In this document: positions 19,081-37,619 of the stretch, piece after piece | Layout of the letters: the number at the start of each line of letters is the position of its first letter | Position numbering within the stretch: position 1 is the stretch's first letter | Assembly: GCA_950295325.1 (NCBI GenBank) | Contig: OX485806.1 | Span: 24,676,001-24,740,000, forward strand | DNA from: Polytrichum commune | Lineage: Eukaryota > Streptophyta > Polytrichopsida > Polytrichales > Polytrichaceae | DNA: 64,000 nucleotides | Direction: 5' to 3' | Notes under the pieces: model-generated | What the model was told of the DNA's origin: nothing | The model's input: only the letters and a program-made list of their open reading frames with translations | Database searches by the model: none | Made by a program: the position numbers and the translations under genes

Positions 19081-19097
19081 TGATTTTATATCTAGGG

Positions 19098-19322
19098 ACT
19101 CTTGGATGCGTATCCCAAACATAACATCTTAGCCAATTGTGGGTGAATTGAACGGCACATCCCAAACGCAACAATATTAAAATAATTTGACAGTGTGTAT
19201 AAGAAATTGCAAATTAGCATCTGCAATATAATTATATAGTTTGGACTCCACATCCGTAAACACAAACATATAAAAAACATTTGATAGCGCATGTGAAGTT
19301 GGATTCTACATCCGTAAATCAA
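19098..19322. repeat. Three decayed palindrome copies past the 3' end of the DUF7869 gene
   Basis: TTGGATGCGTATCCCAA (about 19102), TTGGACTCCACATCCGTAAA (19241-19260) and TTGGATTCTACATCCGTAAA (about 19300-19319) keep the right half-site ATCCGTAAA, with a degraded left half. They resemble the variant at 21079 in the nearby intron. Confidence 0.5.
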
Positions 19323-19458
19323 TACAATCATGATATATAATTGTAATCTATAAAATTGCTATAAAATGTGTCTAATATAGTATTCGACCCCAATGTCATA
19401 TATTTCATGAAAAACCAAGACACATTTCAAATAATTGTGGTCCAACCCTACGTCAATA

Positions 19459-22400
19459 TCATTCTCCATCTTCATCTTCAGCTTCATTTCCATTCTCGAC
19501 ATCGTTTTCTGCAGCAGCAATACGTGCCAAGTTGTCTTTGGCAAAATCTATATGTTTTTGGGGGATGGTCATTGTCTCTGATTTGGAACCTTTGCGTGGT
19601 TTCCAAGCACAAAATATGGTATCTGTGTTTATCCATATTGGTTTGTATGCTGAGTCCATTGTCCATTTGAAACCTTTTTTGGTGTCCCACCCTAAATATG
19701 TGCGGAGCACATTTTGATCTTTGGTGCTAGGACGGCAATATTCCACCTCAATTTGATGAAAATTTGGGCTAGTTGGAACAAAATTTGGTGATGACAATGT
19801 TTTTACCAACCAAATCGGTTTAAGGTGCTCCTCATCTCCAGGACGTACGAGGATCATATACCCTTCGTAGCAATCAACAGCCACACGAAATGATGGAGCC
19901 GGACGATTACGAGCTGGGCCAACATAATGGTCGTCCGCTGCGAACTCTTCACGGATGTCCCCATTGTCGAAGAACATGGCCTCAGATTCCACGATTGTCA
20001 CTCGGCTTTGTGGCCAAAAACCTTGTGTCAAACATGAATGTGTTTCGACATCGGGTGCTAGCAATGCTGAGCGAATGCGATCCCAGTACGTAATCAATGG
20101 TTCGTGGGTATCCCGAACACGCCTTGTGATGTCTTCCTCGCACAATTCTTTCCAATATTGGATGAATCCGGATATACCTTTGATGATTTCTGGTCCATTC
20201 CTCATGGGGTTGGGTTTGCAAGGCTTCGGCTCCCCATCAGGTAGCATACATTTGCCCTCTTCGTTTTGGCGTCATACGAGTATCCCTTCCTCTGGACCCC
20301 AATCCGGGGAAGTGCACAAAACTTTGAATTGCATGGCCGGCAAACCATCATCACGCATATAGAATCGGAATTGTTGAGCCTTGGTATGGCCCACTAAACG
20401 GTCACCTCCCTTAAGAATGAATGGTTCGATAAACGCTTTGAAATCGGACACTTCTTCAATCAAATGCGGGATGACTGGCACATTATCCAAATCCATGTAT
20501 GATTTCATGAGAAGAGGAATCGTCGGAAGATCCTCCTCGTGCAACTTCATACTCCAACGTCCAAATGAAGCGTCAATGTCATCATGCGTGTGGCCAACCA
20601 TCAAAAAAGACACAAACACTTCTTTGAAAATGCCCTTGGCTACGAGCAATGACCAAAAACAAAACACGTATCGACATTTGTTGTCTTTGGCACAATTGTC
20701 CAGTTGCACATGTAGAGTTGGAGGCAAAGGTTTAGCAAGAACGGTTTGTTCAAGCGGTTCTTGCAGTGACGATAGACATACTTCTTTCCCCTCTAGCACA
20801 GCCTCATAAATCGGTGTTGTTCCAAATCCAACAAAAAGAGCGCGAGAGGATGATGTTGGCGGACTCTCAAGATCTCGTAGAAGTTTTGCAAAAGACCCCA
20901 CGGTATGATTGGCGTCGCCTGGATAGAAATCCAAGCCATAATGTGCATACTTGACGTCCACATGGCCATGTGCGATCATACCTGAATTAAGACATACAAA
21001 TGAGAAGTACATTCCAATATCTTTTATGATAAGGAAATTCAATTTTTCCGCAAGCAGGCCAAGAAAATGAACAAACACTTACGGATGTACATCCGTAACT
21101 CTTAACGATGAGTATGTGGGTTCGCAAAAAAAATGTGAAAACCAACGAACCTGTGACAGATATTGGGAGCTTGAAATATCCATCTGTAGCCTTTATTTTC
21201 CGTGCATAACAAGGGCACGCAGTCTTCGCATGGTCCATTTTGTCATGAATGATTGTCAAAACCTCATTCGGCCTCATTATCGATAATGCGCAATTCTTGT
21301 AGTAGTCTTGACGGTGTGCCTCTTGGTTGTTGACATACTCAATGTATTTCCGTTGATGTCTATTGTGCGACTCAGTCCCTATGGGATGTGCATCTCGAAG
21401 GCCCTTGTATTTTTCACAAGCAGAACACCTGGCAAACTTATCCCCAGGCCTCTTCGTAATGTACTCTGCAAATTGTTGATTCTTGATCACACTCAATTTT
21501 GACAACGAAATCGGCCCACATCCAGCCTTTTCGCCAACCTTATTAACATCCACAATTATGTTCTTCCATTTTGTCCCTGTAGGCAAAACCATCTGGACAA
21601 CCTTTTCCCCCGACGGCAGAGTCCGTGTCTTGTGTGGCATCGCATCTGCTAATGGCATAATGATGGTTGATAGTGTTGCAGCCGCTTGGAGTGTTGCCTC
21701 CCTGGGCTTCTTTGTACCAGAGTTGCCATGGAACCGAGAACGCCGTCCTTGCAGCGAGTAGTTCCGGAACCTATAAAAATCTGCCTTTGAAACTGCATGT
21801 ATAATGTACCATGCCGTGCAGCATACCTCTATATTTTCCAAGGTCACAACCTTACGACCTTCGGCATCAAAGTGCATGTTGCGATGGACTTCAAGTTTCT
21901 TTGCAGATCGCATCCGAAAGTCCGCAAGCCACATCTCTTGTCTCAAAGATTTGATTTTGTCACGGGGAAATAGTTGGCAACACATTTTTGCACAACAATC
22001 CTTTGTTGCTATGGACCTAATAGATGTGTCTCCCAATGTTAGATCTCGACGACGTTGCGTGGGTTCACGAGGCACGCGAACGGAATCATATTTACGCCGA
22101 CCTTGTCTAGGACGCATTGTGGTGAACAAAGTCTTTTGTATTTCCTCAAAATGACGTGCATGATTCCACAAGCTGATACCATCGTGAAGAACACTTCGCA
22201 ACGGCCATCGACAAAGAGAGAATCTCCAACCATGAGGTACTTCCAATGGATGTAAGGAGTTCAAAATGCACACCCCAACATCTTCCTCCCCAAGGGGATT
22301 TGCATCAATACAGTCCATAGGATTTGAGTTCCTACAAACACCATTGGCCACGGGGACGCCGTATCCATTGACTATGACAACATCAAGATCAATCCATTGT

Positions 22401-22555
22401 TCCCGCGAATAACCCTCACATGTTGGTATGAAATCATCCTCTGCATTGGCGACACCAATTGTAGTTTCATGTTCCATGACACCTTCAAATTCGCTAGCAT
22501 AGCTTGACGCTTCCGAAGAGAACTCGAATGCACTATCTCGGACGTTGGAATCCAT
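19459..22555 (-). CDS. DUF7869-type transposase-like protein, interrupted by one in-frame TGA
   Basis: Two exons on the minus strand, 22555-21151 and 20981-19459, join across a 169-bp GT/AG intron (PISVT-G-MIAHGH) to 975 codons. The start MDSNVRDS was chosen as the first ATG before continuous acidic/Ser sequence; an in-frame ATG lies 20 codons upstream. The middle carries Cys/His clusters (CCAKMCCQLF; CSACEKYKGL then a His-rich stretch), a probable zinc-binding region. The C-terminal half has QLDNCAKDNK (Asp about 563) and GHTHDDIDASF (about 598-608), hallmarks of DUF7869, an RNase H-like, presumably transposon-derived domain. An in-frame TGA at 20274-20272 (codon ~705, GTA-TGA-CGC) is followed by 270 open codons in the same frame with a Trp/Tyr-rich domain and a Glu/Asp-rich end. 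A CGA-to-TGA change would explain it. Palindromes lie in the intron and upstream. The biochemical activity of DUF7869 is not established. Confidence 0.82.
20272..20274 (-). other. In-frame TGA inside the DUF7869 gene
   Basis: Reading frame and composition continue unchanged on both sides. The neighbouring codons are GTA and CGC, so the ancestral codon may have been CGA (Arg), lost by C-to-T change at a CpG. Readthrough cannot be excluded from sequence alone. Confidence 0.7.
21079..21098. repeat. Perfect palindrome in the DUF7869-gene intron
   Basis: TTACGGATGT is followed directly by its exact complement. It differs from the main family (TTACGGACGC) at two positions, and both changes are mirrored in the other arm. 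It lies in the single intron, close to the donor site in transcript order. Confidence 0.9.
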
Positions 22556-22696
22556 GGCCACTACAAGTGACCCACATGAAGAGTATGTCAAAATATCCCA
22601 TTCAATAAATATCATGGATAGTCCTAACGCTTATTGTCAATGAAACACAATATCAACAATAGTGGATTTCATGGCCTGGAAACAAAGACACATTGG

Positions 22697-22923
22697 TATA
22701 CGAACGCGCGTACGTATATCTCCATGTAACAACATTATCAGTGCAAGCACGCGCATACATATGTCTTTATTTGTTCATAGTCGGCGGAAAGGTCCAGACA
22801 ACAAAAACATGACAGTTTTATGGGCGCGCACCCGTAAATCTCTTTGTGGTCAAAGAGGTCAATATCATGCACAAATGTTTTCGCAAACTATACAACATAG
22901 GTATACGGACGTGCGTCCGCAAA
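22697..22923. repeat. Diverged palindrome copies upstream of the DUF7869 gene
   Basis: Two near-palindromes, at 22697-22718 (TATACGAACGC core) and 22902-22923 (TATACGGACGT core), and two partial copies near 22746 and 22826 lie 140-370 bp before the leftward start codon, in the presumed promoter. Confidence 0.7.
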
Positions 22924-23152
22924 CATCCGAATGTCAAAAGTCAGTGTTGTGCAAGACACACAGAGGTTTAGGAAACCAAGATGTACAAGTGCCAGGTTCC
23001 TACTGTGTATTATGAATGTCAAAATATTATACTATGACACATAGGGTGATGTAAGCTTAGGGTTTAGGGATCTTATACCTCCATTGATCGTACAGTCTCA
23101 ATGTAATATTCTACATGGCACATAGTGAAAAGTATGAAACCAAAGGTTTGCA

Positions 23153-23178
23153 GGTTTACGGACGCGCGTCCGTAAACC
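23153..23178. repeat. Perfect 26-bp palindrome
   Basis: GGTTTACGGACGC is followed directly by its exact complement. This is the best single copy left of the tandem array. A decayed copy (TTACTGGACGTGAGTC...) follows at about 23215. Confidence 0.95.
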
Positions 23179-23334
23179 TCACTGTACCTCATTACTAGCA
23201 CAAATAGGTTTAGGTTACTGGACGTGAGTCAGAAAATTTTTATGACAATACAGTCTCGTTAGTATACTATACATGGCAAGTGGTCATGATGTCAGCTCAG
23301 GTGCAATACCGAACAATGGAACAAAAAAGTGCAA

Positions 23335-23648
23335 AAGTTTATGGACGCGCGTCCGTAAACCTCAATGTAGATGAAATAGGTCAAGTATAATTCTCACTGC
23401 AATAGATATCCAATCAAGCAAGAGGTTAAAGGTTTACGGACGCGCGTCCGTAAACCTCAATGTAAATGAAATAACTCAAGTATAATTCTCACAGAAATAC
23501 ATATCCAATCAAGCAAGAGGTTTAAGGTTTACGGACGCGCGTCCGTAAACCTCAATGTACATGAAATAGCTCAAGTGCAATTCTCACAGAAATAGATATC
23601 CAACCAAGCAAGAGGTTTAAGGTTTACGGACGCACGTCCGTAAACCTC
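23335..23648. repeat. Tandem array of four 95-bp units, each with a palindrome
   Basis: Palindromes are at 23337-23360, 23431-23456, 23526-23551 and 23621-23646, with steps of about 95 bp. Each is followed by CTCAATGTA...ATGAAATA..TCAAGT..AATTCTCAC and ATATCCAA.CAAGCAAGAGGTT. Two copies are perfect over 26 bp. The fourth has CGCACG at its centre and the first a G-to-A-type change in the left arm. The array faces the leftward transposase-like gene. Confidence 0.95.
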
Positions 23649-23699
23649 CGTGATTTGCGGCGCCATAATAGGACCATTTCACCAGGAACGATACTTGCC

Positions 23700-26600
23700 A
23701 TAAACAAAAATCAATCACTATAAGGATCCAGACAATGCAATCCACATAAAAATTGGCTCCACTAATGGGTTTATGGCTTGGAATTTAGTGTTTAGGGTAT
23801 AAAAGGTCCATTGCAATAGGATTTGTACCTGCACGAAATAAACATCAAGAACACTACAAGGGTCCAAGCAGCGCAACCCACATCTGAGATGCAAAAAGAG
23901 TCCCTTGGTGGAGGGGTGTCCCCTTAAGTACTGATCGTTTCCCTTGGATCCGTTTTCCAACATAGGATACTAGCCACCATCTACGTCCTATAAATAAAAA
24001 CCTAACATTACTACATTCCGTGTGCCAGCCTTACAATGGAATGTGTATTCATAGTGGACAACATGCATAGACGATGAGTCCACATAATGACAAAGCAAAA
24101 GGCATCTACGTATTTATGGTGGACAACAAAGAAAATAGGCTAATAATATATGAGCATTGAACATTGTTGAGGGGTGGTTTATAATATTGAAGTACCTAAT
24201 ATTGAGAGGTCATTGTAGAACTAGGAGACAGAAAATTATAGTGTCGTGTGAAACATCAACCACAACAACAACAATAGTACATGGAGTATAAAAATACGTG
24301 TCATTCAAAATTAAACTAGCATCTATTTTATTGTTTTGCATACGATGTAATGATATTCACTCCAATATCATGTTATCTCCTCTCATCTAGCATTTAAACT
24401 AGTAATTACATTTGCCACCACCCTACCATCCAACCCGTTTAATTTACCCACTTTTACACACCTATACATAATTATATTAATACGTACACAAACTTTAAGC
24501 GCCTAGATGCCATGAAAATAGCACATCTATTGTCATAGGCACTATGGGTTGCTTTAAAATCAATATTCTCAATTTCCTCTCTTAACCTTAGGGCCCCCTT
24601 CAATACATCAACATTTATTTCAAAAAAAATAATACTAGCATTCTTAATGTACTATACGTGAGACAAAAAACAATTTTTAGTACCCCATGTACATTATCTA
24701 CAATATTGACTCAAACAATAGTAGTTGTTGTTCTAAGTAACATTATGAGCCCAACAAAGCATAATGGAGAGAAGGGGAGGGTAGGGTATCCAAATATTAT
24801 AAAGGCAAGCAATTTTAAGTTGGTGAAAGAAGGGGGATACTCTCATTAGTTCATACGTGGTACCCTAAACCCTAAACCCTAAACACTATACCCTATACCC
24901 TATACCCTATAACCACCCACCCCTGAACAAACACGACGACATACGGTACGCATGGTTAACTGAATAACTCCCAATACATGTGTAGCCTTAAGTGGAAGTA
25001 ATTCAAAACTATATGACTACCTTTAAATTTTGTAAAATAAAACCATAAACATTTCAAATGTGAAGCAAATTTAGGGGTAACCTTACCTTTCATTTTTTTA
25101 AATCTTTCTTTGGCTTTAAACCATTTGCTTTAAACATATACTTTTGATGAAAGGTTTTGAAGATCGTATATTGGTATTCTATAATCGAGTCCTAAACACA
25201 ACTCACCACCGAAAGAAAACTCCAAATATAAACAAGTTTGCTACTACTTATAAGCGATAATACAAGCTGAGGCCTATGTGTGGAAGGATTGGATGGATCC
25301 GAAAGGTTGTTTAATGTACAAGAGGGATGTACATTCAACACATACCCATGCATTTTGTTTTAATACAAGCTTAGACCTATGTGTGGAGGGATTGAATTAA
25401 TCCGTAATGTTGTTTAAGGTATTACAAGCATATGAATTCTCCCCATATCTCGATGTTTCGGTTTTGTTAATTGCGTTTCACAACTTATTGCGATAATTGA
25501 GGGATTCACAAGTATTTATTGGCAAAGTTTCATGAGAATTTGTGGCCAATTGGTATATTGCCCCAATTGCATTTGAATCCCACCTTTGAGAAGAAAAAGA
25601 ATTCTTATACTGAAGTTAATCAACAAGACATCCTTTTATTGAATATTATTATTATTCTCGAAATATAGAGTCCCCTCCATAGCTCGGGGGGTGCACTGTA
25701 CTAAACATATACGAGTTATACGTGAGTGCACAGGAGGGGTATTGATTTGGACCTTGCCGTATTGCATATACATATGGTATACATGTTATAATTTATAGTT
25801 ACGTACATATATGGAAGGCCTTTAAAAAGTATACAATAATTGTACTTGTATGGTATTGTTACTATACTATATATCATAAGTGTTCATATTGGATAAGTTT
25901 TCATAAGGTTTGGTTTGTTGGGAGAGTTTATAGGATGCGGAGGAAGTTTGGTAATCGTTGGGTGGAGTATAGGGATCCATTTGACTTGATGGACCGTCCA
26001 TCAAACGTGGAGATTGGTTTATGTTGGTATCAAAAGGGGCTAACAACAAGTGGACATATGATCTTATTGATCATTCCATGGTAGACTTAGAGACAATAAT
26101 TGCATTTGTATATTTATGTTAATGACTCTCGGGGGGGGGGGGGGCAGTCATTGGTTGGAGTAGCAATATACGTGCAAACAAATGATAGGGTATTTTAAAA
26201 ACATGGGGGCAAAAAATTATAAATGGACTTAAGAGTAATATAGGGTATCAAAAATGGCACTGGACATCTTTAAAGTAGTATAGGGTATGGAATAATAGGT
26301 AATTTGGAATTATAAGTAATGCAAGCCATTTTTCTATTAACCCAAAGTAGAAATTTATATAATGATAGCATGTGAAAAAAATAAGAGAATTAAAAGTAAT
26401 ACTCCCCTATATCCTTATTTTTTTAACACACTGCCCCCCCGAGTAATGACTAATATATATGAATGGATGTTTTTTTGTGTATACATATTGTCGCTTGTAT
26501 ATTTATTGTTGCAATTGTATGTGTATTACTTCATTTCACAAAAAATCACTTGTATATATTAGGGGGTTTTTAGAGTATGCAGTGAACGCACATGATTCTA

Positions 26601-27060
26601 GGTTTTAATGAAAGGTGCTCCCCCACTCTCCATAGAGGCCACACTAGAAATTGTAGTTAGTTTCTCTCATTGTTTGGAGTTCCAAAATGATATTATTATT
26701 ATTATTGATGTCATTTAATTGTTGACAATGACATAATAATTTACTCAACCTCACACCCTAATATAATTTCCTAAAATAATGAATACTTTCTAGAGCTCGT
26801 ATGAATATTTCACTCATTATCAAAAGTGAAGAGAAGAGGCAACGAGATGGCTCATTTTATATTTAGAGTGACATTTAGTGTGACTTTTAACTTGCCTTAG
26901 CATAAACATAAGATGTTATTATGACATAATATGATAATAAAATCACCAAACTAAGTATAAATTAAACCCCTATTTCAATACCAAATATAGACCAGTAGGG
27001 TGATGCCACGTAAGGGTATAGGCCGGCGATTGGGCGCGACGTTTGGGGTAGGGACACGTG
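23700..27060. other. AT-rich intergenic stretch between the divergent genes
   Basis: No gene or palindrome copy is seen. It holds a short interstitial telomere-like run (24863-24884), a poly-G run near 26131-26144 and many AT-rich simple stretches. If the 19-35.6 kb block is a single element, this is its central spacer or an insertion. Confidence 0.5.
24863..24884. repeat. Interstitial plant telomere repeat (CCCTAAA)3
   Basis: Three perfect CCCTAAA units are followed by decayed CCCTATA units to about 24912. CCCTAAA/TTTAGGG is the Arabidopsis-type telomere unit of most streptophytes. Confidence 0.85.
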
Positions 27061-27067
27061 GAGGCAC

Positions 27068-27560
27068 GCCATTGTTTTAGGGTTCCAAGTACTCCAACAC
27101 CCTTTCGCCCTCGCTCTTCGTGCTTTTCCTTCCTTCTCTATCATCTCTTCCTTCCTTTCCTTCTACTGTTGCTCTTGCTTCTCTTGCTTTAGGGTTATAG
27201 GGTTTCAAAGTACACCAGCTCCCTTTTGCCCTCCTCTTCGTGTTTTTGCTTCCTTCTCTTGCAGCTCTTGTTTCTCTTGTTTCTCTTGCTCATCTGCTCT
27301 TGCTTCTCTTGCTCATTTGCTCATCTTCTCTTGCTCATCTGCTCTTGCTCATCTTCTCTTGCTCATCTACTCTTCTTCTCTTGCTCATCTTCTCTTGCTC
27401 ATCTTCTCATCTTCTCTTGCTCATCTGCTCATCTTCTTTTGCTTCTTTTGCTTCTCTTCACTTTCTTCTCTTGTTTCTCTTGCTTCTTACCCTTATCTTC
27501 ACTTTCTTCTCTCTCTTCTCTTGCTTCCCTTGCTGGTCTTGCTTCTCTTTCCTCACAATG
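27068..27560 (+). repeat. Pyrimidine-rich minisatellite, probable 5' leader of the rightward genes
   Basis: A ~120-bp segment (AGGGTTCCAAGTACTCCAAC...CTTCGTGCTTTT) is duplicated at about 27068-27160 and 27190-27260. After it come many CTTCTCTTGCTCAT-type units to about 27560. Pyrimidine-rich leaders are common near plant transcription starts, and a strong donor (AGA/GTAAGT) follows at 27607. The long open frames here are artefacts of the repeat. Confidence 0.6.
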
Positions 27561-27586
27561 CAAAACTCATTCTTATTGGTCAATTG

Positions 27587-27600
27587 CTGACGCGCGTCAG
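27587..27600. repeat. Short palindrome related to the family core
   Basis: CTGACGCGCGTCAG shares the GACGCGCGTC centre of the main palindrome but with different arms (CT/AG). It lies just before the proposed first donor site of the rightward gene. Confidence 0.6.
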
Positions 27601-27989
27601 AGCTAGAGTAAGTTCTCCTTGTTTGCTGCTCATTTGCTTATTAGCTCATTAGCTCATTAGTAAGTTTTGCTTGCTGCTTGCTTGCTGCTCATTAGATCAT
27701 TAGGATGCTCATTGTTGCTTGCTACTGCTCATTAGGTTGTTTTCAGTTGTTGATCTCAGTTGTTGCAAGGGTAATTAGTGTTTCAGATGTTGCTCATTAG
27801 GGTTTCAGTTGTAGCTTCACCATGTAGTTCATTATATTTTTTGCATACAAATCAATAGTTTCCTTTCACTTGTGTTGCATGAATCTGATTTATGAGCAAC
27901 TTTTTTTAAGTAGTTCTCAATGTTGAATCATGCATGTGCACATTGAATTACTAGAGGTTTCTGACCTCAATTTTATTGTTCATTTGCAG

Positions 27990-28332
27990 TTGGTATTAGC
28001 TGCAGCAAGAGCAGCTACTTGTGGTTTAGGAGCAAACACTCTAGAAAGGTAAGTTTTTTAGAACATTGCAATTGCATTTTGTATGATTGCAATTTTGGAT
28101 TGTTGTGGTTTAGGGCTTAAGGTTAGCATGAGAGAATGTGAGATTCCAGTTTCAAGGAATTCTGAATTTGTTTAGTACTTTGTCTATGGCTACATTCTAA
28201 GAATCATTTAGTTATGGACATGTCAGTGTTCTGAAAGTGCCTTATGTTGTCAATCTGCAGTGCAGTGTTTGCTATTGCAGTGAAGTAAGATTGCATTCTT
28301 ATTTGGAGGGCAAAACCATATTGGACGACAAG
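27990..28332 (+). other. Proposed 5' untranslated exons of the ParB/methyltransferase-like gene
   Basis: Two segments have good splice borders: 27990-28048 (after CATTTGCAG, before GTAAGT) and 28261-28332 (after AATCTGCAG, before GTAAAG). Joined, they give no continuous reading frame, so they are probably leader exons. The coding exon itself starts right after an acceptor (TTTGCAG/ATGGC at 29107), which requires upstream exons. Confidence 0.4.
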
Positions 28333-28377
28333 GTAAAGTCCCGAAAAACACGGAGCATTAATGAAAACATTGGAATA

Positions 28378-28740
28378 CGCAAACATTACAATAGCCTTTA
28401 TAATCCTCAAAGTTTACGGACGCGCGCCCGTAAACTTTGTGGATCTTTGTGTAGGTGAGAGACAAGCCTCTCAAACAACATATTACGCAAACGAAGCCAA
28501 ATATTGTAATATTAGGCATATTAAAATAGCCTTTATAATACTCAAAGTTTACGGACGCGCGTCCGTAAACTTTGTGGATCTTCGTGTAGGTGAGAAACAA
28601 GACTCTCAAACCGCATATTACGCAAACGAAGCCAAATATTGTAATATTAGGCATATTAAAATAGCCTTTATAATACTCAAAGTTTACGGACGCGCGTCCG
28701 TAAACTTTGTGGATCTTTGTGTAGGTGAGAAACAAGACTC
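28378..28740. repeat. Tandem array of three 135-bp units, each with a palindrome
   Basis: Palindromes are at 28409-28438, 28543-28574 and 28678-28709, with steps of 135 bp. In the second and third the symmetry spans 32 bp (CAAAGTTTACGGACGC plus exact complement). The unit also carries GTGGATCTT.GTGTAGGTGAGA, ACAA.CTCTCAAAC and AAATATTGTAATATTAGGCA. The array lies in front of the rightward gene. Confidence 0.95.
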
Positions 28741-28852
28741 TCAAAAATATATGTAGGTGAGAAACAAGACTCTCAAAAATATATGTAGGTGAGAAACAAG
28801 ACTCTCAAAAAAATATATGTAGGTGTGAAACAAGACTCTCAAAAAAAAAAAT
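28724..28852. repeat. Minisatellite, four ~32-bp units
   Basis: GTGAGAAACAAGACTCTCAA plus AAATATATGTAG repeats about four times. The unit is part of the 135-bp repeat next to it, so it arose by local re-amplification. Confidence 0.9.
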
Positions 28853-28903
28853 ATTAACCGTAACTTGAATACATTGATATTTACCACCATACTATCTTTG
28901 CGA

Positions 28904-28928
28904 AGTTTACGGACGCGCGTCCGTAACT
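28904..28928. repeat. Palindrome copy
   Basis: AGTTTACGGACGC is followed by GCGTCCGTAACT. It is nearly perfect, with one T missing in the right arm. It lies about 180 bp before the start codon at 29107. Confidence 0.9.
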
Positions 28929-29027
28929 TATAGAGATATTTGAGTATATAATATACGCGTTATGCGTATTTGGAAGAAATGTATCTTTTCATTTGGATCC
29001 AAAAATGTAATTGAGACAATTTGGAAA

Positions 29028-29053
29028 ACTTTACGAACGCGCGTTCGTAAAGT
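29028..29053. repeat. Perfect 26-bp palindrome with mirrored changes
   Basis: ACTTTACGAACGC is followed directly by its exact complement. Relative to the main family, one G is replaced by A in the left arm, and the matching C is replaced by T in the right arm. It lies 54 bp before the start codon. Confidence 0.95.
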
Positions 29054-29106
29054 ATGATCTATATCTTTTGCCAATAATTCTAACTTATCTATCTTATCAT
29101 TTGCAG

Positions 29107-32100
29107 ATGGCATCTAAAAAGAGACATGCAATTGAGATGTTCGCAGAAGCTCTTATTCCTCCGCTACCAGAAGCCATCAAAGACATAAGTCCCAACGACC
29201 ATTACAAGCCACAAGATGAAATTGTGGATAATTGGACAGTATTGGTAGAAAATGACGAGAAAGAAATATTTGTGCTTAGATTTGCATATCAAATGAAGAC
29301 GGACATAGATGAAGCTGAGAAGTGGATAAAGCTTAAATCGTGGACAGTAGAGTGTGCAGTGGCACAAGGGGATTATGTAGTAATAGACCTTGAGAAGAAA
29401 GAAGATCGGGTCACTTTCATTTTGCACGAATCCTACCACCCCTTCAACAAAAATGAGTGTGAGAATGCTAGTACAGATGCGGCTTGCTTCAATCTCCAGA
29501 CGGAGTTCCAAGACTATGCATGCAATGCACCTTGGACGGGTAAGCGGCTTAGACGACTTTTGAACAATGTAACAAGAGTAAATGGAGCCTTGCTAGAGGC
29601 CAGAAAGGGGAAAGAGAAGAAAAAACAAGTCGTTCCTGAACGACCCAAGCGTGTGCCTAAACCAGTGCCGGAATCCTCAAGGCCCTCGCAGAGTGGTGCA
29701 TCAAGAGGGAGCAGACAGGCGAGTAAACGCTCTCACTCGCAGATGGACTCTGGACTAACAGAGGGTCCGGATGTCAGCTCTACACTGACTGTCGCTCCAC
29801 TCCTCAAAAAGGGTCAACGCCCTGACGCCGAACTCTCAACAAAAATATTCCAAGAGTTCGATGAGAAGACGAAGGGATGCTGGCCCCTTGGCAAGTATTT
29901 TACTTTCGAAGTAGACGTCTACAAATGCCACAAGGGCACCGAAAGTATGAATACCAGAGCAAAAGCAGAAAGCGGGGTATGGTGGCAAATGAACAACATC
30001 ATGAACAACCCCAAGTTTGACAGGCAGACCATTTGTGTGACACCAAAGGATCCTATCGTTGAAGTCAACGAAAACAATTGGCCGATTCTCAAGAATGGAG
30101 AGTTCTACATTGTCGACGGCCAACATAGTGTAATGGCTGCAAAAGCTTTCCTTGAAGACGACGAGTGGAAAAGCCCATTAAAGGAGACAATCCGATATTG
30201 AAAGGCATTCGTCGTGCATTCCAAGGACTCGAACCAACTCATAGCAATATCTGCCTTCATGAACCAGGGGAATAAAGTGAGGCAGTTCGAGGCTTTATGG
30301 GCAGCCAACATCGTGGCTGGGAGGATCTTGTGGGTGGAGCACGAATGTCCCCCAAAAGAAAGAGATAATGCTGTCGTGAAGAACCCAAAATGGCAGGTAT
30401 GTTACTCAAATAGATTTACGGACGTGCGTCCGTAAATGTGGCCCTTCTCCTCCCACTGATTCAAATATTTGAATTTAATCTGTATTGAATTCAATGTTCT
30501 GATTTCTTGCAATTCGCGTCTCTTGCAGACATTCAGCAATGCCATATTGACAAAGTTCTCGAGTATAGACATGAAGACAAGCGGCATGAAAACAGTGCAT
30601 GAATTAAAAGGCGAACTCAAGCTCATCACTGCAACAGAAGAGACGTGGTCAATATGGTTGCGACTTTTCAATGCCCACAACAACGGCGACCTTGTCAATC
30701 CAGATACGGAGAACACCTACAAGAGCGACTCAAAAGTTAAGGTACCACCAATCCTGCGAGAGTTCTTTCGTCCCCTCCAAGGATTGATGGACTCGGAGCT
30801 GTACAGGGCAGCAGAACACATTCTTCTAGAAACTCCTAGAAGAACTCTGCCCTATCCCAAAATCTTTCTGAAGCGGCTGAAGCACATGAAGCCATCCACG
30901 TACCACATTAAGGAATGGTGCGATTACAGAAAGAAGAAGACCATGGCTGTAAGGGAGATTAGCAAATTGCTACCCACCCACAACCTCATTAATAGTGATG
31001 GTGAGATCGTGTGGGAGAATTGGAGGAAGCTGAAGGGTGAATACCACATCAATGGCGTCTCAATGCGAGCTTTGATAAGAGGGGCATCATCCTTCCTTGC
31101 CCAACGATCCAGAAGGAACGAAAAGAAGGGATCCATCGACGAGAGGGAGGCAGGGTTGTACGTTCACTTTCTCGATAGGAAAAAGAACGCGAAATTTGGA
31201 GGGTTTGCAAGATTCTGCACGGTCGCAAAGGGCATGAAGTTCGGCGCATGGGATACCCATGCTTCAAGAGCCTCTGTGAGAGATGACCCCAGGGGTTGCC
31301 CTTTCGCCATTTTTTATTTTCGTGCAATTCCCGGAGCATGGAAGCAAGACGTTGCGGGAGCACCCTTCTACGAGCCCTTCTTAAAAGCCTTCAAGAGTTA
31401 TCGCTCGCCTGCCCTCTTCGAGCCTCATGTGTGGTTATGGATTGTAGAGCAAGAGAGGTCCACATCCATTGTCCATCTGTACACATCAACGATGGACCTC
31501 AAATACGATATGTACCACAGCACCTACATCCCAGCGAAGACAGAAGGGATCACTTTCATTCAAGAGGCAAGGGGGGTGAAGCAAGTGGGAGTTGTGCAGT
31601 TTTATTTCTTAACACGCAAGTCTTCCCCAACTGGGCGATTGCCCATTAAACCACACGAGGTGTTCAGGAAAGTCTATTCGTTGCCGCCACCACATCCCAA
31701 GGAGCTTGTTGAGGAGACAATGCATGCAATCTATCCGGCGTTCGAGCTCCGGATGGACTTTTATATAGGGGTCTTGAAGGCTTTAACTGTCATGAGTGAG
31801 ATAGTTTACAACGTCTTCGGAGGCACGAAGTTTATGTATGCAGCACTGGTGAGTATTTGTTTGTCTTTCAACCCACCTATCTTTTGCATAGTTATTTTAC
31901 GGACGCGCGTCCGTAAAAACCAAGTATCAGGTGCATGTGAATTTTACGACCGTGCGTCCGTAAAATTGTCCAACTTTTGAGTGGTGGTTTTACGGACGTG
32001 CGTCCGTATAACGTGTTGACATCTAGCCTCATTTATATGCAATCACCACTATTGTTCTTATCTAATTTTCTTGTTATGGTCCAGATGCTTGGCTTGCAGG

Positions 32101-33515
32101 TGAATTTTTTTGTGCAGGATTCCGACTACGATGACGCCCATACTCACAGGGTAATGGCCTCCAAAATGGATATCCAGGACATCATGGACGTCCTTACACC
32201 CCATCCTGTTGTGCCTCTTTCTTCTAGAGAAGAGGCAATGCCCGGAATGGAGACAGACCCTGAAGAGGACCAAGATCTCAGTTCCCCAAGAGCGCAACCC
32301 TCCACACATGAGCCTTTACACGGCCTTGTTCGCGACCCAATTAATCCAAGTGCTTTCCTGCTGGGAACAGACGACACGGATGCGCAGGAGGCACGCGTGA
32401 ACTTCACTCCGATAAGGGTCCCTCATACCCCTGTTCTCTCACCTTTTGGGACTCCCACCTCTCGAGTTGGATTTCCCTCAACTGCGGGTCCATCTCGTGC
32501 TCCAGGAGTTATGGCCGAGAAGGATGTGGACCTTGCGGCAGAAGGCGGATGCACCGCTTCATCTGGAGGGGGATCTCAACATTCAGATCTACCCCCTATG
32601 GAGGGGAGGGATGTGCTGGAGTTGATATTGAGGCCTGATATCTCTCTATATCGTGAGAGTCGACGAAAGAGGAACAAGACGCCATACAACGAATACCCTG
32701 AAGGCGCGGTCTTGGAGCTCTCCGATGAAGACGAGGATGAGATTAGGATTCACAATGCCATCTCTGCCTTGCCTACGGAACCTGGCAAGGTGAAGAAAGA
32801 GCCGATGTCAGTGTCCGAATTGGACGAGAAGATGGAGAGGCGAATGAAGGAAGAGCTTGACCAACGGCTTCGAGAAGCTAACGAGGAGCACGCCAAAAAG
32901 ATGGCCGCCATCCAAGCTGAGATGGAGCAAGCTAGGTTGGAGTCTGCTCGAAGCCACGCCGATCTCATGGCCCAAAATCAACAGTTCTTGGCCCAAAGTC
33001 AACAATTTATGAGCCTGATGCAGAGCTTGCAGGCAAGACCCCCTGTAGTCTATACAGCTCCCGATGCCGTCATGTCTATGCCCCCCACTCTCATGCGGCC
33101 TCCATCTAGTAGCCATGCAGTGTATATACCCGAGCATGCTTATCCAGCCCCCGCGTTGATTGTCCCGCCCTCTCCCCTTGTTGTCGCCACTCCAGAGGAG
33201 CCCTCCTCTCATCCTACAGGAGTGGAGGAGATACCGGCACGTGACATGGCGGGTGCCGCCGAGACAGATGTCAATGAAGGCAATGCCCCCATCGGCGATG
33301 AAGATGTACATATGCGGGGCAGCCAAGACTCCACAGATGAGGATCAGCCTTACGTGGATACTCAAGGGTTGCAAGCGGCTGGAGACACCTTGTTGGTGGT
33401 CGAAGATCTGGACAATTTTGCGGGCGCGCGTCCGGAGCCTGTGCCCATGACAAGGCCAGGTGAGGGAGGCACTGCTGGCGCGGACCTCGCCCCTGAAGAG
33501 GTAATCAACCTTTGA
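29107..33515 (+). CDS. ParB/Srx-fold plus methyltransferase-like protein, interrupted by one in-frame TGA
   Basis: Exons 29107-30396, 30529-31848 and 32085-33515 join in phase 0 (1346 codons). Residues 1-200 are acidic/hydrophilic, then a basic Pro/Ser/Lys linker (about 195-270). Around 325-395 the pattern NGEFYIVDGQHSVMAAKAF, then AFVVHSKD...AISAFMNQGNKVRQ, resembles a ParB/sulfiredoxin-like fold (DGQH at 337-340). The stretch about 780-890 (IKPHEVFRKVY, then VYNVFGGTKFMYAALML and FFVQDSDYDD) resembles motif X/I of beta-class DNA methyltransferases. I see no clear DPPY/DPPF catalytic motif, so activity is doubtful. Exon 3 encodes a Pro/Ser/acidic tail with a coiled coil (about 1115-1180). 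A TGA at 30199-30201 (IRY-stop-KAFVVHS) breaks the frame; TGG-to-TGA is likely. Palindromes lie in both introns and upstream. I know of no named eukaryotic gene with this layout. Confidence 0.75.
30199..30201 (+). other. In-frame TGA inside the ParB/methyltransferase-like gene
   Basis: The frame continues without shift for 65 codons to a good donor (CAG/GTATGT). The context TAT-TGA-AAG suggests a lost Trp codon (TGG). It interrupts the putative ParB-like domain. Confidence 0.7.
30414..30437. repeat. Palindrome in intron 1 of the ParB/methyltransferase-like gene
   Basis: ATTTACGGACGT is followed by GCGTCCGTAAAT. It is symmetric over 24 bp except for the centre pair. It begins 17 bp after the donor site. 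Confidence 0.9.
31895..32012. repeat. Three palindromes in intron 2 of the ParB/methyltransferase-like gene
   Basis: Copies are at 31895-31918 (perfect, TTTTACGGACGC plus complement), 31941-31966 and 31987-32012 (both with one or two unmatched bases), about 46 bp apart. All lie within the 236-bp intron 31849-32084. Confidence 0.9.
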
Positions 33516-33528
33516 GCATGCCTCCCAC

Positions 33529-33550
33529 GTTACGGACGCGCGTCCAAAAC
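33529..33550. repeat. Palindrome copy just after the stop codon
   Basis: GTTACGGACGC is followed by GCGTCCAAAAC, 14 bp past the stop of the ParB/methyltransferase-like gene. A related partial core (GCGGGCGCGCGTCCG) lies at about 33420 within its last coding exon. Confidence 0.75.
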
Positions 33551-33888
33551 TTCCTTGTCTGCCTCCTTCGTGGCGTGTGTATATTATCGAGTTCAATCCT
33601 CGACTTCGCCCGGCGGGTGGATACAATTTTGTTAGCATAGATTCCATTAACTTCAATAGATATTTTTTGCGACAATGTATATTATTCACCAAATGTGTAT
33701 CACCAATTACATTAATACCAATTTTTCAACTGGATGGTTCGGATTATTTTTGGCCTTATAATTTGTGTTGAGTTTATCCATGCTTGTCAATTGGTTTTCT
33801 TGAGTAGTACCATTTACCTAGATAGAATGTTCCATCACAGGGTCCGTCCGAGATATGTCGCAACCCCGCGGGAAAACCAAGCGCGCCC

Positions 33889-34608
33889 ATGATGAAACCG
33901 TTCATAATATTTGACCTCAATGGGGTGCTTTGTCAATCCAAACATATCTCGAATACTGCGTCCAAGGGGCCCTTCCGTAGTCCACAAGACATGGATTACG
34001 GCGGACATTTCGATACTCTCATAAATAAGAAGGTTGTACGTGCCCGCCCCGGTTTGAGGAGCTTCCTTCGTGAGGTCCTTGGCTTCGCCCATGTCATCAT
34101 CTGGAGCTCTATGCTCATGGACAACACGAAGGCCATCGTCGGTTTCCTTTTCCGAGAACTCGCAATGCCATGCTTGCTTCTCGATCAAGAACACTGCGAT
34201 GACCTCTATGACCGTAGTGGCAATATTGTACCCAAGGTCGGAGGAGGTCGTGGGCCTCAATTCTTAAAGGTCCTGAGGAAGAACCTCTGGGTGGGCGTCC
34301 CTATGTTGGAGGGGGTTCCCCACGGTTGTTGGCCCACCCCGGATAAGACACTCCTCATTGACGACAGCCCGGCAAAGAGTATTCTCAATCCCCCGGGCAA
34401 TTGCATATTCCCGGATCCTTGGGAAAGCGATAGAAATGACAACTTTCTAGAGAGTGAACTAGGACCCTACATTAGGAGGCTTGCCTATCACCCCGGAAGT
34501 GTCCCGGATTTTGTGCTCTCCAACCCAATTGGCAATAGGCCTCTAGGCCCACAAGATGAGGAATTTAGGAGATTGTACGGCTACGCTAGACTCAATAAAT
34601 TAATATGA
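33889..34608 (+). CDS. HAD-family phosphatase, NIF/FCP1-like
   Basis: A single open frame of 239 residues. Motif I is FIIFDLNGVLC (nucleophile Asp9 present, Asn in place of the second Asp). Then come VRARPGLRSFLREV and motif II in VIIWSSM, a middle block LLDQEHCDDLYD, and the final motif LLIDDSPAKS with the acidic pair, then FPDPWESD and LGPYIRRL. This order is that of NLI-interacting-factor (FCP1/SCP-like) phosphatases. The Asn at the general acid/base position would be expected to weaken catalysis; Asn variants are known in plant relatives. The start was taken at the first ATG of the frame. The frame is open back to a good acceptor at 33841, so an upstream exon is possible. Its place 370 bp after the ParB/methyltransferase-like gene, same strand, suggests it belongs to the same element. 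The substrate is unknown; DNA ends or protein phosphates are both possible. Confidence 0.82.
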   Translation: MMKPFIIFDLNGVLCQSKHISNTASKGPFRSPQDMDYGGHFDTLINKKVVRARPGLRSFLREVLGFAHVIIWSSMLMDNTKAIVGFLFRELAMPCLLLDQEHCDDLYDRSGNIVPKVGGGRGPQFLKVLRKNLWVGVPMLEGVPHGCWPTPDKTLLIDDSPAKSILNPPGNCIFPDPWESDRNDNFLESELGPYIRRLAYHPGSVPDFVLSNPIGNRPLGPQDEEFRRLYGYARLNKLI

Positions 34609-34736
34609 AAACTTTGATGATTTTGGGTTTGTACTTGGACTCTCCATGTAAATATCTAACATTTCTCCCCTTATCTTTGTAATGTATTTTTGTGTCTTAG
34701 TTGCCTCACCAAGCACCCAAAAGTGTCGTCAATGGC

Positions 34737-35597
34737 ATGTCTGCATCTCAGGCAGACACCGGCTCCCCTTCCCTTGGTATGAGCGACGTTGCAATGCCTT
34801 CACTATTCCAATATTTGGCCGTCGATGCTGCCTCTGCTGTTGATTACTCCAAAGACTCCGGGTTTGAAGACGGAGTCGTGGATAGCCCTCCTGCAAAGGT
34901 TGCAAAACTCAATTACTCTCCAAGTCCATCTCCATCTCCCCTCCGCAGTGAGAAGCACGTCCGTAACCCACGGTCGACCAGACGCCTTTGCATGGATGAA
35001 CCCCAAATTGATGTCCCGGCGTTTGCGAACGTCCCTCTCGGGCTTGTATCTACACCCGTCGATGTCCCAAAAGCTCTAACCAGCGCCCCAAAGGCGAAGG
35101 TGCCCAACTATTGGCATTCTCAAGTTTTTCCTTGATGATTTCCGTGTATTAGTGCATTTCAACTTCTTGGGTTTTTCGGACTTCCATCCGTAACTTGTAA
35201 CCACTTATACTAACCCACTTCATTATATATATTTATGGTCATTGTTCAGACCCCAATGTACACGAATGTGGGCCGGGCATCATCGACTTCGTCATTGGAT
35301 AGGCGAACACTGAAGACAGCTTCTTGCGAGTCTGATCGTTGTTTGGCCCTACGGAAGAGTGCAAGACGTTCGGTTTCCCAAACGCATTCGTATTCCACTT
35401 ATTCGGAAGGGGGTCGGCAAATATGGGCAAATGGCGCATATTCGGGGTCAACAAATAAACAAGGTTACAGCCGCGGACCCGAGATCTTTAGAGCCATGGA
35501 GGCCATGAAAGCAAAGGAACGTGAAACGGCCGTAAATGCTAATAATAGTATTGCAAAAGCAAAAGTAGTGAGTCGTAATCATGATCCGAACGTATAG
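34737..35597 (+). CDS. Small Ser/Pro-rich protein, hypothetical
   Basis: Two open segments, 34737-35099 and 35250-35597, join in phase 0 with a GT donor (AAG/GTGCCC) and a TTCAG acceptor to about 236 residues. The first part is Ser/Ala/acidic with SPPAKVAKLNYSPSPSPSP and PRSTRRLC. The second is Ser/Arg/Lys-rich with SARRSVSQTHSYSTYS and ends near KAKVVSRNHDPNV. I recognise no domain; composition suggests a disordered, phosphorylatable protein, perhaps nuclear. The frame is open upstream to a possible acceptor at 34700, so an earlier exon is possible. It is the last gene of the rightward set, and the intron has a decayed palindrome (about 35172-35195). Confidence 0.5.
35172..35195. repeat. Decayed palindrome copy
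   Basis: TTTTTCGGACTTCCATCCGTAA keeps both half-site cores (CGGA and TCCG) but the arms no longer fully match. It is the rightmost copy seen; a half-site (CACGTCCGTAAC) also lies at about 34957. Confidence 0.5.
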
Positions 35598-35640
35598 GCT
35601 ATATTAACATACATGTAGTTGTGGAATTATGTTTCTAGGA

Positions 35641-37619
35641 CTTTCGCCTAATATTGGATATTCCACTTGCATTTTGTACTTCAACCCCTATTCAATAAAT
35701 ATGATATTGATTTTCCATATGCAAATGTTTTCATATATCCCATTTTCTTATTGTTAATGTGTAGTTCCATGCATTTGAGTCTCTTATTTGTTTCCAAAAT
35801 TGGGAACATAGCATATTTTTAGTGTTTTTATTCCTATAAATGTGAAAGCCACGTCCTTAAATAGTCTCAAAATTAACAAAAAGTCTCCAAATAACGAATA
35901 TAGTGTTGGTATCTAAGGATTAGCCATGGCCTCAACACATACTTTTTAAGTATTACCAACCTTAAGTTGAAGATCCTTGGCTCAAGGAAGTTACGCTCTA
36001 AACTCCGTAGTATCACACCTGTTGCAATCAGAGTGCACAAGATATTATGGAGTTCCGTATTGTTAACATGGATGTGTGATCCATAGTGTGATGTTGTGTA
36101 GCATGTGACACTATGGAATAACACAAAGTGCAACATTTTAATGATGTGGTGTAGTCCACTCCACTTGACCTTCCCGGGTGATGTGGCATATGCATGCACT
36201 AACATTCAACAAGTAGCATAACAAGAATAAGAATAAGAATAAGAATAAAAAGGTGACACTCCACATATTGACACATGGCGCAATGCAAGGGTGTGAGTTG
36301 ACTTCATTGGTGGTTTGCATTAATGACAAAGTTCATGATATAAGGAAGAGAAATGGGACAATAAGGAGTGAGATTTGAACTACGAACATCCGTTCCCTAG
36401 GGTTTCGAGATATTAGAGAGTGAGTGACATTATGGAGGTTGGTATTGCGGAGTTTAGGGTGCACTTCCCAGATGTATTGGTCCACTTGAAATAGAACAAA
36501 ATGTAGGCCTTGTCACATACCGATTAAAATCACCAACTCCAATAAATATTCATAACGTTTTCCCATGTATCATTATTGAAGCCTTATGCGGCTAGTGGCA
36601 ATGCAAAGCCTCCGCTTCCACCAATCTTAGATGAAGCCGAAAGGATATCTTTCAAGTGAAACAAGTACTTTAGCATGAAAATAGAGGCAATTCTTTCTCA
36701 TCAATTGGTCGGGTTATAGGTTGGAGGAAAACTTGTGAAGCCCCAAAAGTACTTGAACTCCTAGTATCCAAGGAATATAGGGATAGTGTAGCACAGTCTA
36801 CTGAAGAGTTTTAATGCACATATGTTGTGCTAGATAGCAATTCCAATACGAAACCGTAACTGAAATGATGAAATTTTGAGATAGTTCGCCAATCTCCTTG
36901 ATATGAAGTTTTTTACATTCCTTTGAGATAAGGTATTGCTTCGTCAATTAAGTAGATACACTCAAAACCGGGAGTAGTGCAACGTATTGATATTTGTTGT
37001 TTTATTTAAACGCGTTAGTCAAGATAGATAGAAGCTTCAGACCTCTTTTTAAGGCCGGTGTGAATAAAATGTATGTTCGTAATGTGAATGACCTAGTGCC
37101 ATGCGTTAGTCAACACCAAGTAACTATAAGAAATGATGCATAGAAGTTCATGGTTTTAGTCACTTGGAGGCTTGGATCTTCTTACAAATGAAAACATTTG
37201 GTTAAATTGCACCAACATTGAACATAGACTGAATGGTTGGTGTTGTTCAACCAATTGGAGTAGATTGATTGTTGATTGCCCATATATGAGCCTGTCTTTC
37301 CTTTTTAAGATCTTGTCGATTTGTTCAATATATTGGACTCTCTATTAAACGTCTCTTTATGCTTGAGGATCAATCTTCTATAAATACAACGTACAAGAAG
37401 ACATCATGGTTAATTGTTGTGGAAAAATTGCCTCAAATACTTTTACTTTGACAAATTTATTATGATAGATATGCTATTATGCAATGATAAGTATGGAATT
37501 ACCAAGACATAATAACTATTATGTACTTATCGTTGTATGACTTTAACCATGACATGGATTGAAATGAAATTGTTTTCTTAAGTCCTGGAAGCCAAAAGGC
37601 TAATGGGACTAAAAGTAGA
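35641..37619. other. Intergenic region
   Basis: I see no supported gene or structured repeat. A short AATAAG-type run lies at about 36219-36248. Confidence 0.5.

Follow-up and report, generated by a model that had tools for sequence, protein, structure and literature searches.

Introduction

The closest described counterpart of the gene analysed here belongs to Sola1-1_Ec32, a 21.5-kb transposon of Ectocarpus; the available passages of PMC12477816 describe, opposite its transposase, a gene for a protein of 1104 amino acids (aa) with ParB-like and N4C/N6A methyltransferase domains, propose that accessory proteins of this ParB-methyltransferase type bind the transposon that encodes them and modify it, and name no target site for them. 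A second system is VANC of the Arabidopsis VANDAL elements, which, in the available parts of the sources, binds to short motifs that lie in introns and in tandem repeats upstream (PMC5735166), has highly variable regions alongside a much more conserved transposase (PMC5735166) and causes methylation loss (PMC5735166; PMC10398659). We analysed a 64,000-nucleotide stretch of Polytrichum commune (GenBank assembly GCA_950295325.1, contig OX485806.1, positions 24,676,001 to 24,740,000 of the forward strand; hereafter the window), in which a giant transposon carries an accessory gene, starting at position 29107, that an initial annotation had read as joining a ParB/Srx-like domain to a methyltransferase-like region amid clustered palindromes. 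ParB-methyltransferase accessory genes are thus already reported in algal giant transposons, and the present gene represents a variant distinguished by a probable FCP1 domain, by a candidate target site and by a layout like that of VANC.

Compared by description, this locus resembles Sola1-1_Ec32 in being a giant terminal inverted repeat (TIR) DNA transposon with a second gene on the strand opposite the transposase, in the large protein with ParB-like and possible methyltransferase-like regions that this gene would encode, and in the idea of self-binding; it differs in that no methyltransferase signal passes here, in its probable FCP1/NIF domain, in its candidate palindromic sites and in its land-plant host. 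The likeness to VANC and VANDAL elements lies in an accessory gene of a DNA transposon, in short motifs found in tandem repeats, introns and upstream regions, and in a motif and accessory protein that diverge together while the transposase is conserved, seen here in one clade contrast; the present motif, however, is a palindrome of 20-22 bp rather than the 9-base YAGTATTAY of VANC, and Pfam scans of the accessory proteins for VANC's DUF1985 gave no match. A literature search on ParB with transposons, accessory genes and algae gave, among the papers listed and as judged by title, no relevant one besides PMC12477816.

The Transposon and Its Family

The element and its ends are delimited as follows:

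18802..35907, no strand: whole transposon, 17,106 bp (borders of genome matches)
18802..18829, plus strand: left TIR, 28 bp (27/28 identical to the right end)
35880..35907, minus strand: right TIR, 28 bp (pairs with the left end at 27/28)
18798..18801, no strand: target-site duplication (TSD) GGTA, left (4-bp duplication)
35908..35911, no strand: TSD GGTA, right (4-bp duplication)
19459..22615, minus strand: transposase-like gene with DUF7869 (Pfam PF25273, E 2.2e-42; splice phase; clade B homologue L093)

Both borders were sharp in the 407.8-Mb genome searched, as evidenced by the other matches listed, which started at window 18795-18802 in 40/40 cases and stopped at 35907-35910 in 39/39. Perfect 4-bp TSDs flanked 11/11 copies (the window copy and ten picked from the border matches), each at its own site, and the 28-bp TIR, with one position left free, was present at 109 sites per genome strand. 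Sola elements have a 4-bp TSD. Because TIRs, sharp borders and TSDs at different sites occur together, the transposon has moved repeatedly, and the element at 18802-35907 is a TIR DNA transposon of giant size that has been mobile in the recent past; the claim that the gene belongs to an element was thereby confirmed.

The transposon contains two divergent genes, the DUF7869 gene on the minus strand and the accessory gene on the plus strand. The former consists of an exon at 22615-21151 (5' end approximate), an intron at 21150-20982 and an exon at 20981-19459, and we infer that its product is the transposase; a literature search on DUF7869 found no paper in the library searched. Genome searches gave at least 96 matches for exon 2 of the accessory gene and at least 112 for exon 1, which fell into three subfamilies at approximately 98, 83 and 74% identity, while a query with the DGQH region of exon 1 reached a second clade (clade B, as opposed to clade A) at ~49% identity, with at least 150 matches. 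Clade B shares the divergent gene order, the DUF7869 gene (L093) and the NIF domain (L094).

Palindromes in Promoter Regions and Introns

The initial annotation had placed the gene among clustered palindromes, and the clustering exceeded chance when measured against Markov shuffles: the window held 24 matches to TTTACGGACGCGCGTCCGTAAA at up to 7 mismatches, 23 of them at 21078-35421, compared with 0-3 in five shuffles. Sites upstream of the two genes form two groups:

22697..23644, no strand: palindromes ahead of the transposase-like gene, with a 95-bp tandem repeat at 23333-23648 among them
28413..29051, no strand: palindromes ahead of the ParB-like gene, with a 135-bp tandem repeat at 28385-28752 among them

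Palindromes also occur in accessory introns 1, 2 and 3, with degenerate ones in the transposase intron (6 mismatches) and in exon 3 of the window copy (33417-33438, 5 mismatches). Since sites stand immediately ahead of each of the divergent genes, like promoter elements, the palindromes might serve the element's transposase or a host transcription factor, with the ParB-like protein acting otherwise, and arrays of transposase sites are common in transposons. The good sites are not subterminal, however: the match nearest to the left end lies 2.3 kb inside (6 mismatches), and the right end has only degenerate ones 0.5-0.7 kb inside (6-7 mismatches). Palindromes are, moreover, kept in introns, and the transposase is 75-85% identical between clades whose palindromes differ, so that we regard this explanation as a serious contender but an unlikely one.

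The intron comparison covered six copies, four from clade A and two from clade B. Introns 1 and 2 of these copies contained 24 sites distributed over 12/12 introns, where 0.0 were expected from 200 shuffles, and intron 1 of L048-L051 contained one site each at no more than 3 mismatches. Outside the palindromes, intron identity was about that obtained with a shuffled partner in 7/9 comparisons (one shuffle each), and introns of clade A aligned to those of clade B no better than to a shuffled partner; within clade A, the introns of the window copy and L046 were still 56 and 65% identical, compared with 38% after shuffling. Across five exon sets, the single site with 4 or fewer mismatches was in exon 3 of L045. 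The palindromes could fold in transcripts, and their presence in every intron compared would suit RNA hairpins acting in splicing or small-RNA control rather than DNA sites, but most good sites lie upstream of the two start codons, and we consider hairpins very improbable.

The palindrome arms read ACGGACG/CGTCCGT in clade A and ACGAACG/CGTTCGT in clade B, a symmetric change affecting both arms, and clade B sites vary in the two central bases. Genome-wide, the exact clade A 20-mer occurred 1026 times and exact sites with clade B arms, the centre left free, 2909 times, the reversed controls giving 0 in each case; among the first 50 clade A sites listed (contig C1), 49 had a copy of the gene no more than 12 kb away. 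At the level of sequence, these comparisons show that the presumptive promoter regions and introns of the element hold palindromes which are specific to the clade and whose dyad is conserved; this is the strongest result of the analysis. Retention of dyad symmetry through paired changes would fit constraint by a dimeric DNA-binding protein. A literature search with the letters of the palindrome found no paper in the library searched.

Structure of the Accessory Gene

All motifs quoted in the initial annotation are present in the sequence, namely the ATG at 29107, NGEFYIVDGQHSVMAAKAF, AFVVHSKD..AFMNQGNK, VYNVFGGTKFMYAAL and MLGLQV..DSDYDD, and they are distributed over a split gene:

29107..30396, plus strand: exon 1, with the N-terminal region, a linker and the ParB/Srx-like DGQHS region at ~29880-30340 (window sequence, relatives)
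30397..30528, plus strand: intron 1, with a palindrome at 30415-30436 (phase 0, recurs in relatives)
30529..31848, plus strand: exon 2, a conserved region of unassigned fold with the motif-I-like VYNVFGGTKFMYAAL at its end
31849..32084, plus strand: intron 2, with palindromes at 31896-31917, 31943-31964 and 31989-32010 (phase 0, recurs in relatives)
32085..33500, plus strand: exon 3, with MLGLQVN..DSDYDD followed by a low-complexity and coiled-coil-like stretch (by eye)
33501..33840, plus strand: probable intron 3, with a palindrome at 33529-33550 (splice-site comparison)
33841..34605, plus strand: NIF/FCP1-type phosphatase domain, in phase with exon 3 (Pfam PF03031, E 2.4e-13)

In the window copy and 12 relatives from the two clades, the donor of intron 1 was GT in 12/13 and its acceptor AG in 11 of the 12 found; for intron 2 the corresponding counts were 10/10 and 7 of the 8 found. 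The three faulty splice sites of these introns were all in decayed copies (L049, L063 and L062). Because phase-0 introns interrupt the gene and recur in relatives, recoding is unnecessary, and the earlier proposal that TGA be read as Trp was wrong: the frame is joined by splicing, and the TGA at 30199-30201 is a private nonsense mutation. The closest subfamily comprises 30 loci, of which 24 were readable in exon 1 (three were left out as lacking the donor and three as frame-shifted); the TGA was present only in the window copy (L005), the other 23/23 readable copies having Trp, and exon 1 was free of any stop in 15/24. The transposase-like gene of the window likewise has an in-frame TGA at 20274-20272 (minus strand), a position that is Trp in clade B L093. 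With TGAs in both genes, the window copy is probably dead, although the family has many open copies. The TGAs at 20272-20274 and 30199 are G-to-A changes, of the kind that deamination of methylated C in the opposite strand would leave.

The protein probably does not end at 33515, the end given in the initial annotation, since the in-phase intron at 33501-33840 would join the NIF/FCP1 domain to it. The donor of this intron was GAG/GTAA in 5/5 copies read (window, L045, L046, L047 and clade B L094), the acceptor was AG in 2/3 (window and L094), and the junction was in phase in both clades. PF03031 scored above its cut-off of 21.8 bits in the window copy, L047 and clade B L094 (50.5, 58.6 and 45.9 bits), and the first NIF/FCP1 motif reads DLNGVL in the window and in clade B. 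Past the NIF domain, an open frame at 34701-35135 contains the stretch MPSLFQYLAVDAASAVDYS, matched in clade B L094 by MPSLYQFSAVDAASAVDYS; it may be a further exon of the accessory gene or a small third gene. In L047 (C6:18938650), intron 2 reads through in frame, and exons 2-3 form a single open frame of 1026 aa.

Divergence and Selection

Among clade A subfamilies, the ratio of nonsynonymous to synonymous divergence (dN/dS) was 0.07-0.15 for exons 1 and 2 at a synonymous divergence (dS) of 0.8-1.6, and 0.20-0.26 for exon 3 at dS 0.5-0.8. The nearest pair, L016 and L047, gave values of 0.04, 0.10 and 0.29 at dS 0.16-0.35, and the window copy against L016 gave 0.46-0.75 from few changes. These ratios show that purifying selection has maintained the multi-domain accessory protein. 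Between the clades, with one copy pair per part, identity was 75 and 85% for the transposase-like exons and 61% for the NIF domain, compared with 54% for the DGQH part of the accessory protein, 46% for exon 1, 53% for exon 2 and 37% for the N-terminal part; judged by these identities, evolution has been much faster in the accessory protein than in the transposase. Searches of viral contigs, phages and plasmids for relatives of the protein returned none that was convincing, the best plasmid match being to DUF262 proteins at E 3.

ParB/Srx-Like Region

The ParB/Srx reading of exon 1 was sustained in part: a DGQHS motif and weak matches in three libraries speak for it, but none of the matches passes a curated cut-off. 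DGQHS was present in 12/13 copies read over the two clades, L051 having VGQHS. Members of the ParB/Srx superfamily have a DG-x-H-R type motif at a strand-helix turn, and we take the S of DGQHS to occupy the place of the family's R. The library matches covering the DGQH motif were to the ParB-like phrog_1033 (E 0.013 and 0.024 in 2/4 proteins; PHROGs is without a cut-off), Pfam GmrSD_N (E 0.063, 1/4 proteins) and Pfam DUF6551 (E 0.16 in 1/3 proteins and 0.25 in 1/4); NCBIfam DGQHR matched 2/4 proteins at E 0.38 and 0.41, the second off the motif. These four families presumably belong to one superfamily. The window copy itself had no ParB match in the Pfam scan, and searches of the PDB by sequence and by profile gave only a weak match to CwlV (E 1.4 and 0.2). 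Structure prediction, which the initial annotation had proposed as a check, was run with AlphaFold2 and gave no confident model, the mean predicted local distance difference test score being 34 without an alignment and 33 with one of 17 rows. At residues 76-119 of exon 1, within the fast-evolving N-terminal part, there is a weak YEATS-family resemblance, and this segment is a candidate chromatin- or DNA-binding region.

The locus resembles bacterial ParB-parS systems in its DGQH motif in a ParB/Srx-like context and its clustered palindromic sites; it differs in having S for R, in that no ParA was seen and in being a eukaryotic integrated transposon. A ParB-like protein together with palindrome clusters would be expected if ParB and parS-like sites segregated extrachromosomal copies in the manner of a plasmid. 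No ParA-like gene was seen, however, among the window's open reading frames of at least 90 aa, inspected by eye only, and the copies are integrated, with TSDs; we find such partition scarcely credible.

Methyltransferase Proposal

The methyltransferase-like region of the initial annotation gained no support from comparison with libraries and shuffles. No methyltransferase family was among the matches in Pfam, PHROGs, NCBIfam or the PDB, the exon 2 matches being limited to N-SET (E 0.077), DUF1820 (0.072) and phrog_12515 (0.14). That a DPPY-type motif is not visible had already been remarked, and this holds by eye in every aligned exon 2 row; at its supposed place, likewise judged by eye, the copies read IFDFRA, IFYFRA, LIDFRE and similar. 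A motif I (FxGxG) profile, on which true enzymes score 72.7-92.7 and two enzymes from outside the profile 75.0 and 77.5, gave 0.7 for the window, a value reached by 168/1000 shuffles, and 3/3 other copies tested scored best elsewhere than at the proposed site. Comparison by hhalign with 11 beta-class enzymes gave a probability of 0.8% for a one-clade profile (off motif I) and 0.2% for a two-clade profile, eight shuffles of the one-clade profile giving 0.1-1.7%. Ten phage methyltransferases used as yardsticks were 215-283 aa long and, by eye, without a ParB domain.

A protein that binds its own element and methylates it (N6A or N4C), as proposed for Sola1-1_Ec32, would have the same gene arrangement as that published precedent (available passages of PMC12477816); in addition, the window's best motif I stretch falls at the proposed place, and hhalign aligns the two-clade profile there in register. 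With a motif I score and hhalign probabilities inside the shuffle range, no DPPY-type motif seen and no library family, we judge self-methylation improbable and infer that the region is no more than a relic without catalytic function. By analogy, the Sola1-1_Ec32 precedent may make the pairing of ParB with a methyltransferase more believable than the present tests do. Of the role suggested earlier for the gene, to bind and perhaps modify or partition the element, a DNA-marking component is plausible and has a published precedent (PMC12477816, available passages).

Proposed Role of the Accessory Protein

We tentatively propose, as the likeliest reading though one a little short of probable, that by binding the palindromes the accessory protein marks its own element or relieves its silencing. 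The protein, probably dimeric, would bind the palindromes and so recognise every copy of its own element; once bound, it would recruit or block chromatin factors, perhaps via its FCP1-like phosphatase at RNA polymerase II (Pol II), and the ParB/Srx-like part would contribute DNA or nucleotide binding. The outcome would be element genes that stay expressed and unsilenced, as with VANC for Arabidopsis VANDAL elements. In a more specific version, which we hold to be a long way from likely, the protein would load at parS-like palindromes, spread as ParB clamps do and exclude silencing while its own C-terminal-domain phosphatase kept Pol II active, in clade-specific pairs giving no help across clades.

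Several observations weigh against the proposal that the accessory protein binds the palindromes. A few clade A sites carry clade B-type or mixed arms (window 29030; also in L045 and L047), the arm covariation comes from one contrast of two clades, and the palindromes could instead be bound by the transposase or by some host factor. With matches below threshold and an S where R is expected, the ParB assignment is suggestive only; unrelated families score like ParB, among them YEATS (E 0.014-0.025) and phrog_10800 (0.035 and 0.13), with PfUIS3 (0.10), Peptidase_S24 (0.15) and EstA_Ig_like (0.15) at similar strength. The NIF fusion is predicted solely from splice sites, and in L047 the intron 3 acceptor is AA, which would displace the junction by a single base and speaks against the fusion in that copy. 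Most between-clade parts have saturated synonymous sites and so gave no dN/dS, and the accessory copy in the window is broken by a nonsense codon. The family offers an abundant candidate site, specific to each clade and retained in introns that have diverged elsewhere, on which binding, specificity and anti-silencing can be examined directly; confirmation would mean that a VANC-like strategy evolved twice, the second time with an unrelated protein.

Other Features of the Window

Within the transposon, a plant-type telomere-like repeat (ACCCTAA, ~7 copies) is located at 24861-24914, between the two palindrome groups, and a pyrimidine-rich tandem array at 27249-27549, upstream of the palindromes of the ParB-like gene. 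The TTTAGGG-type repeat and exons of plant-like appearance, judged by eye, point to a host that is probably a land plant. Near the start of the window, at 1025-1565, there are two 34-bp tandem arrays that by eye resemble opposite orientations of one unit. Host-like exons at 47073-47702, 57114-57611 and 62015-62329, which would suit a host with motile sperm, resemble, by eye, an ARL8-like GTPase and coiled-coil pieces of flagellar-protein type.

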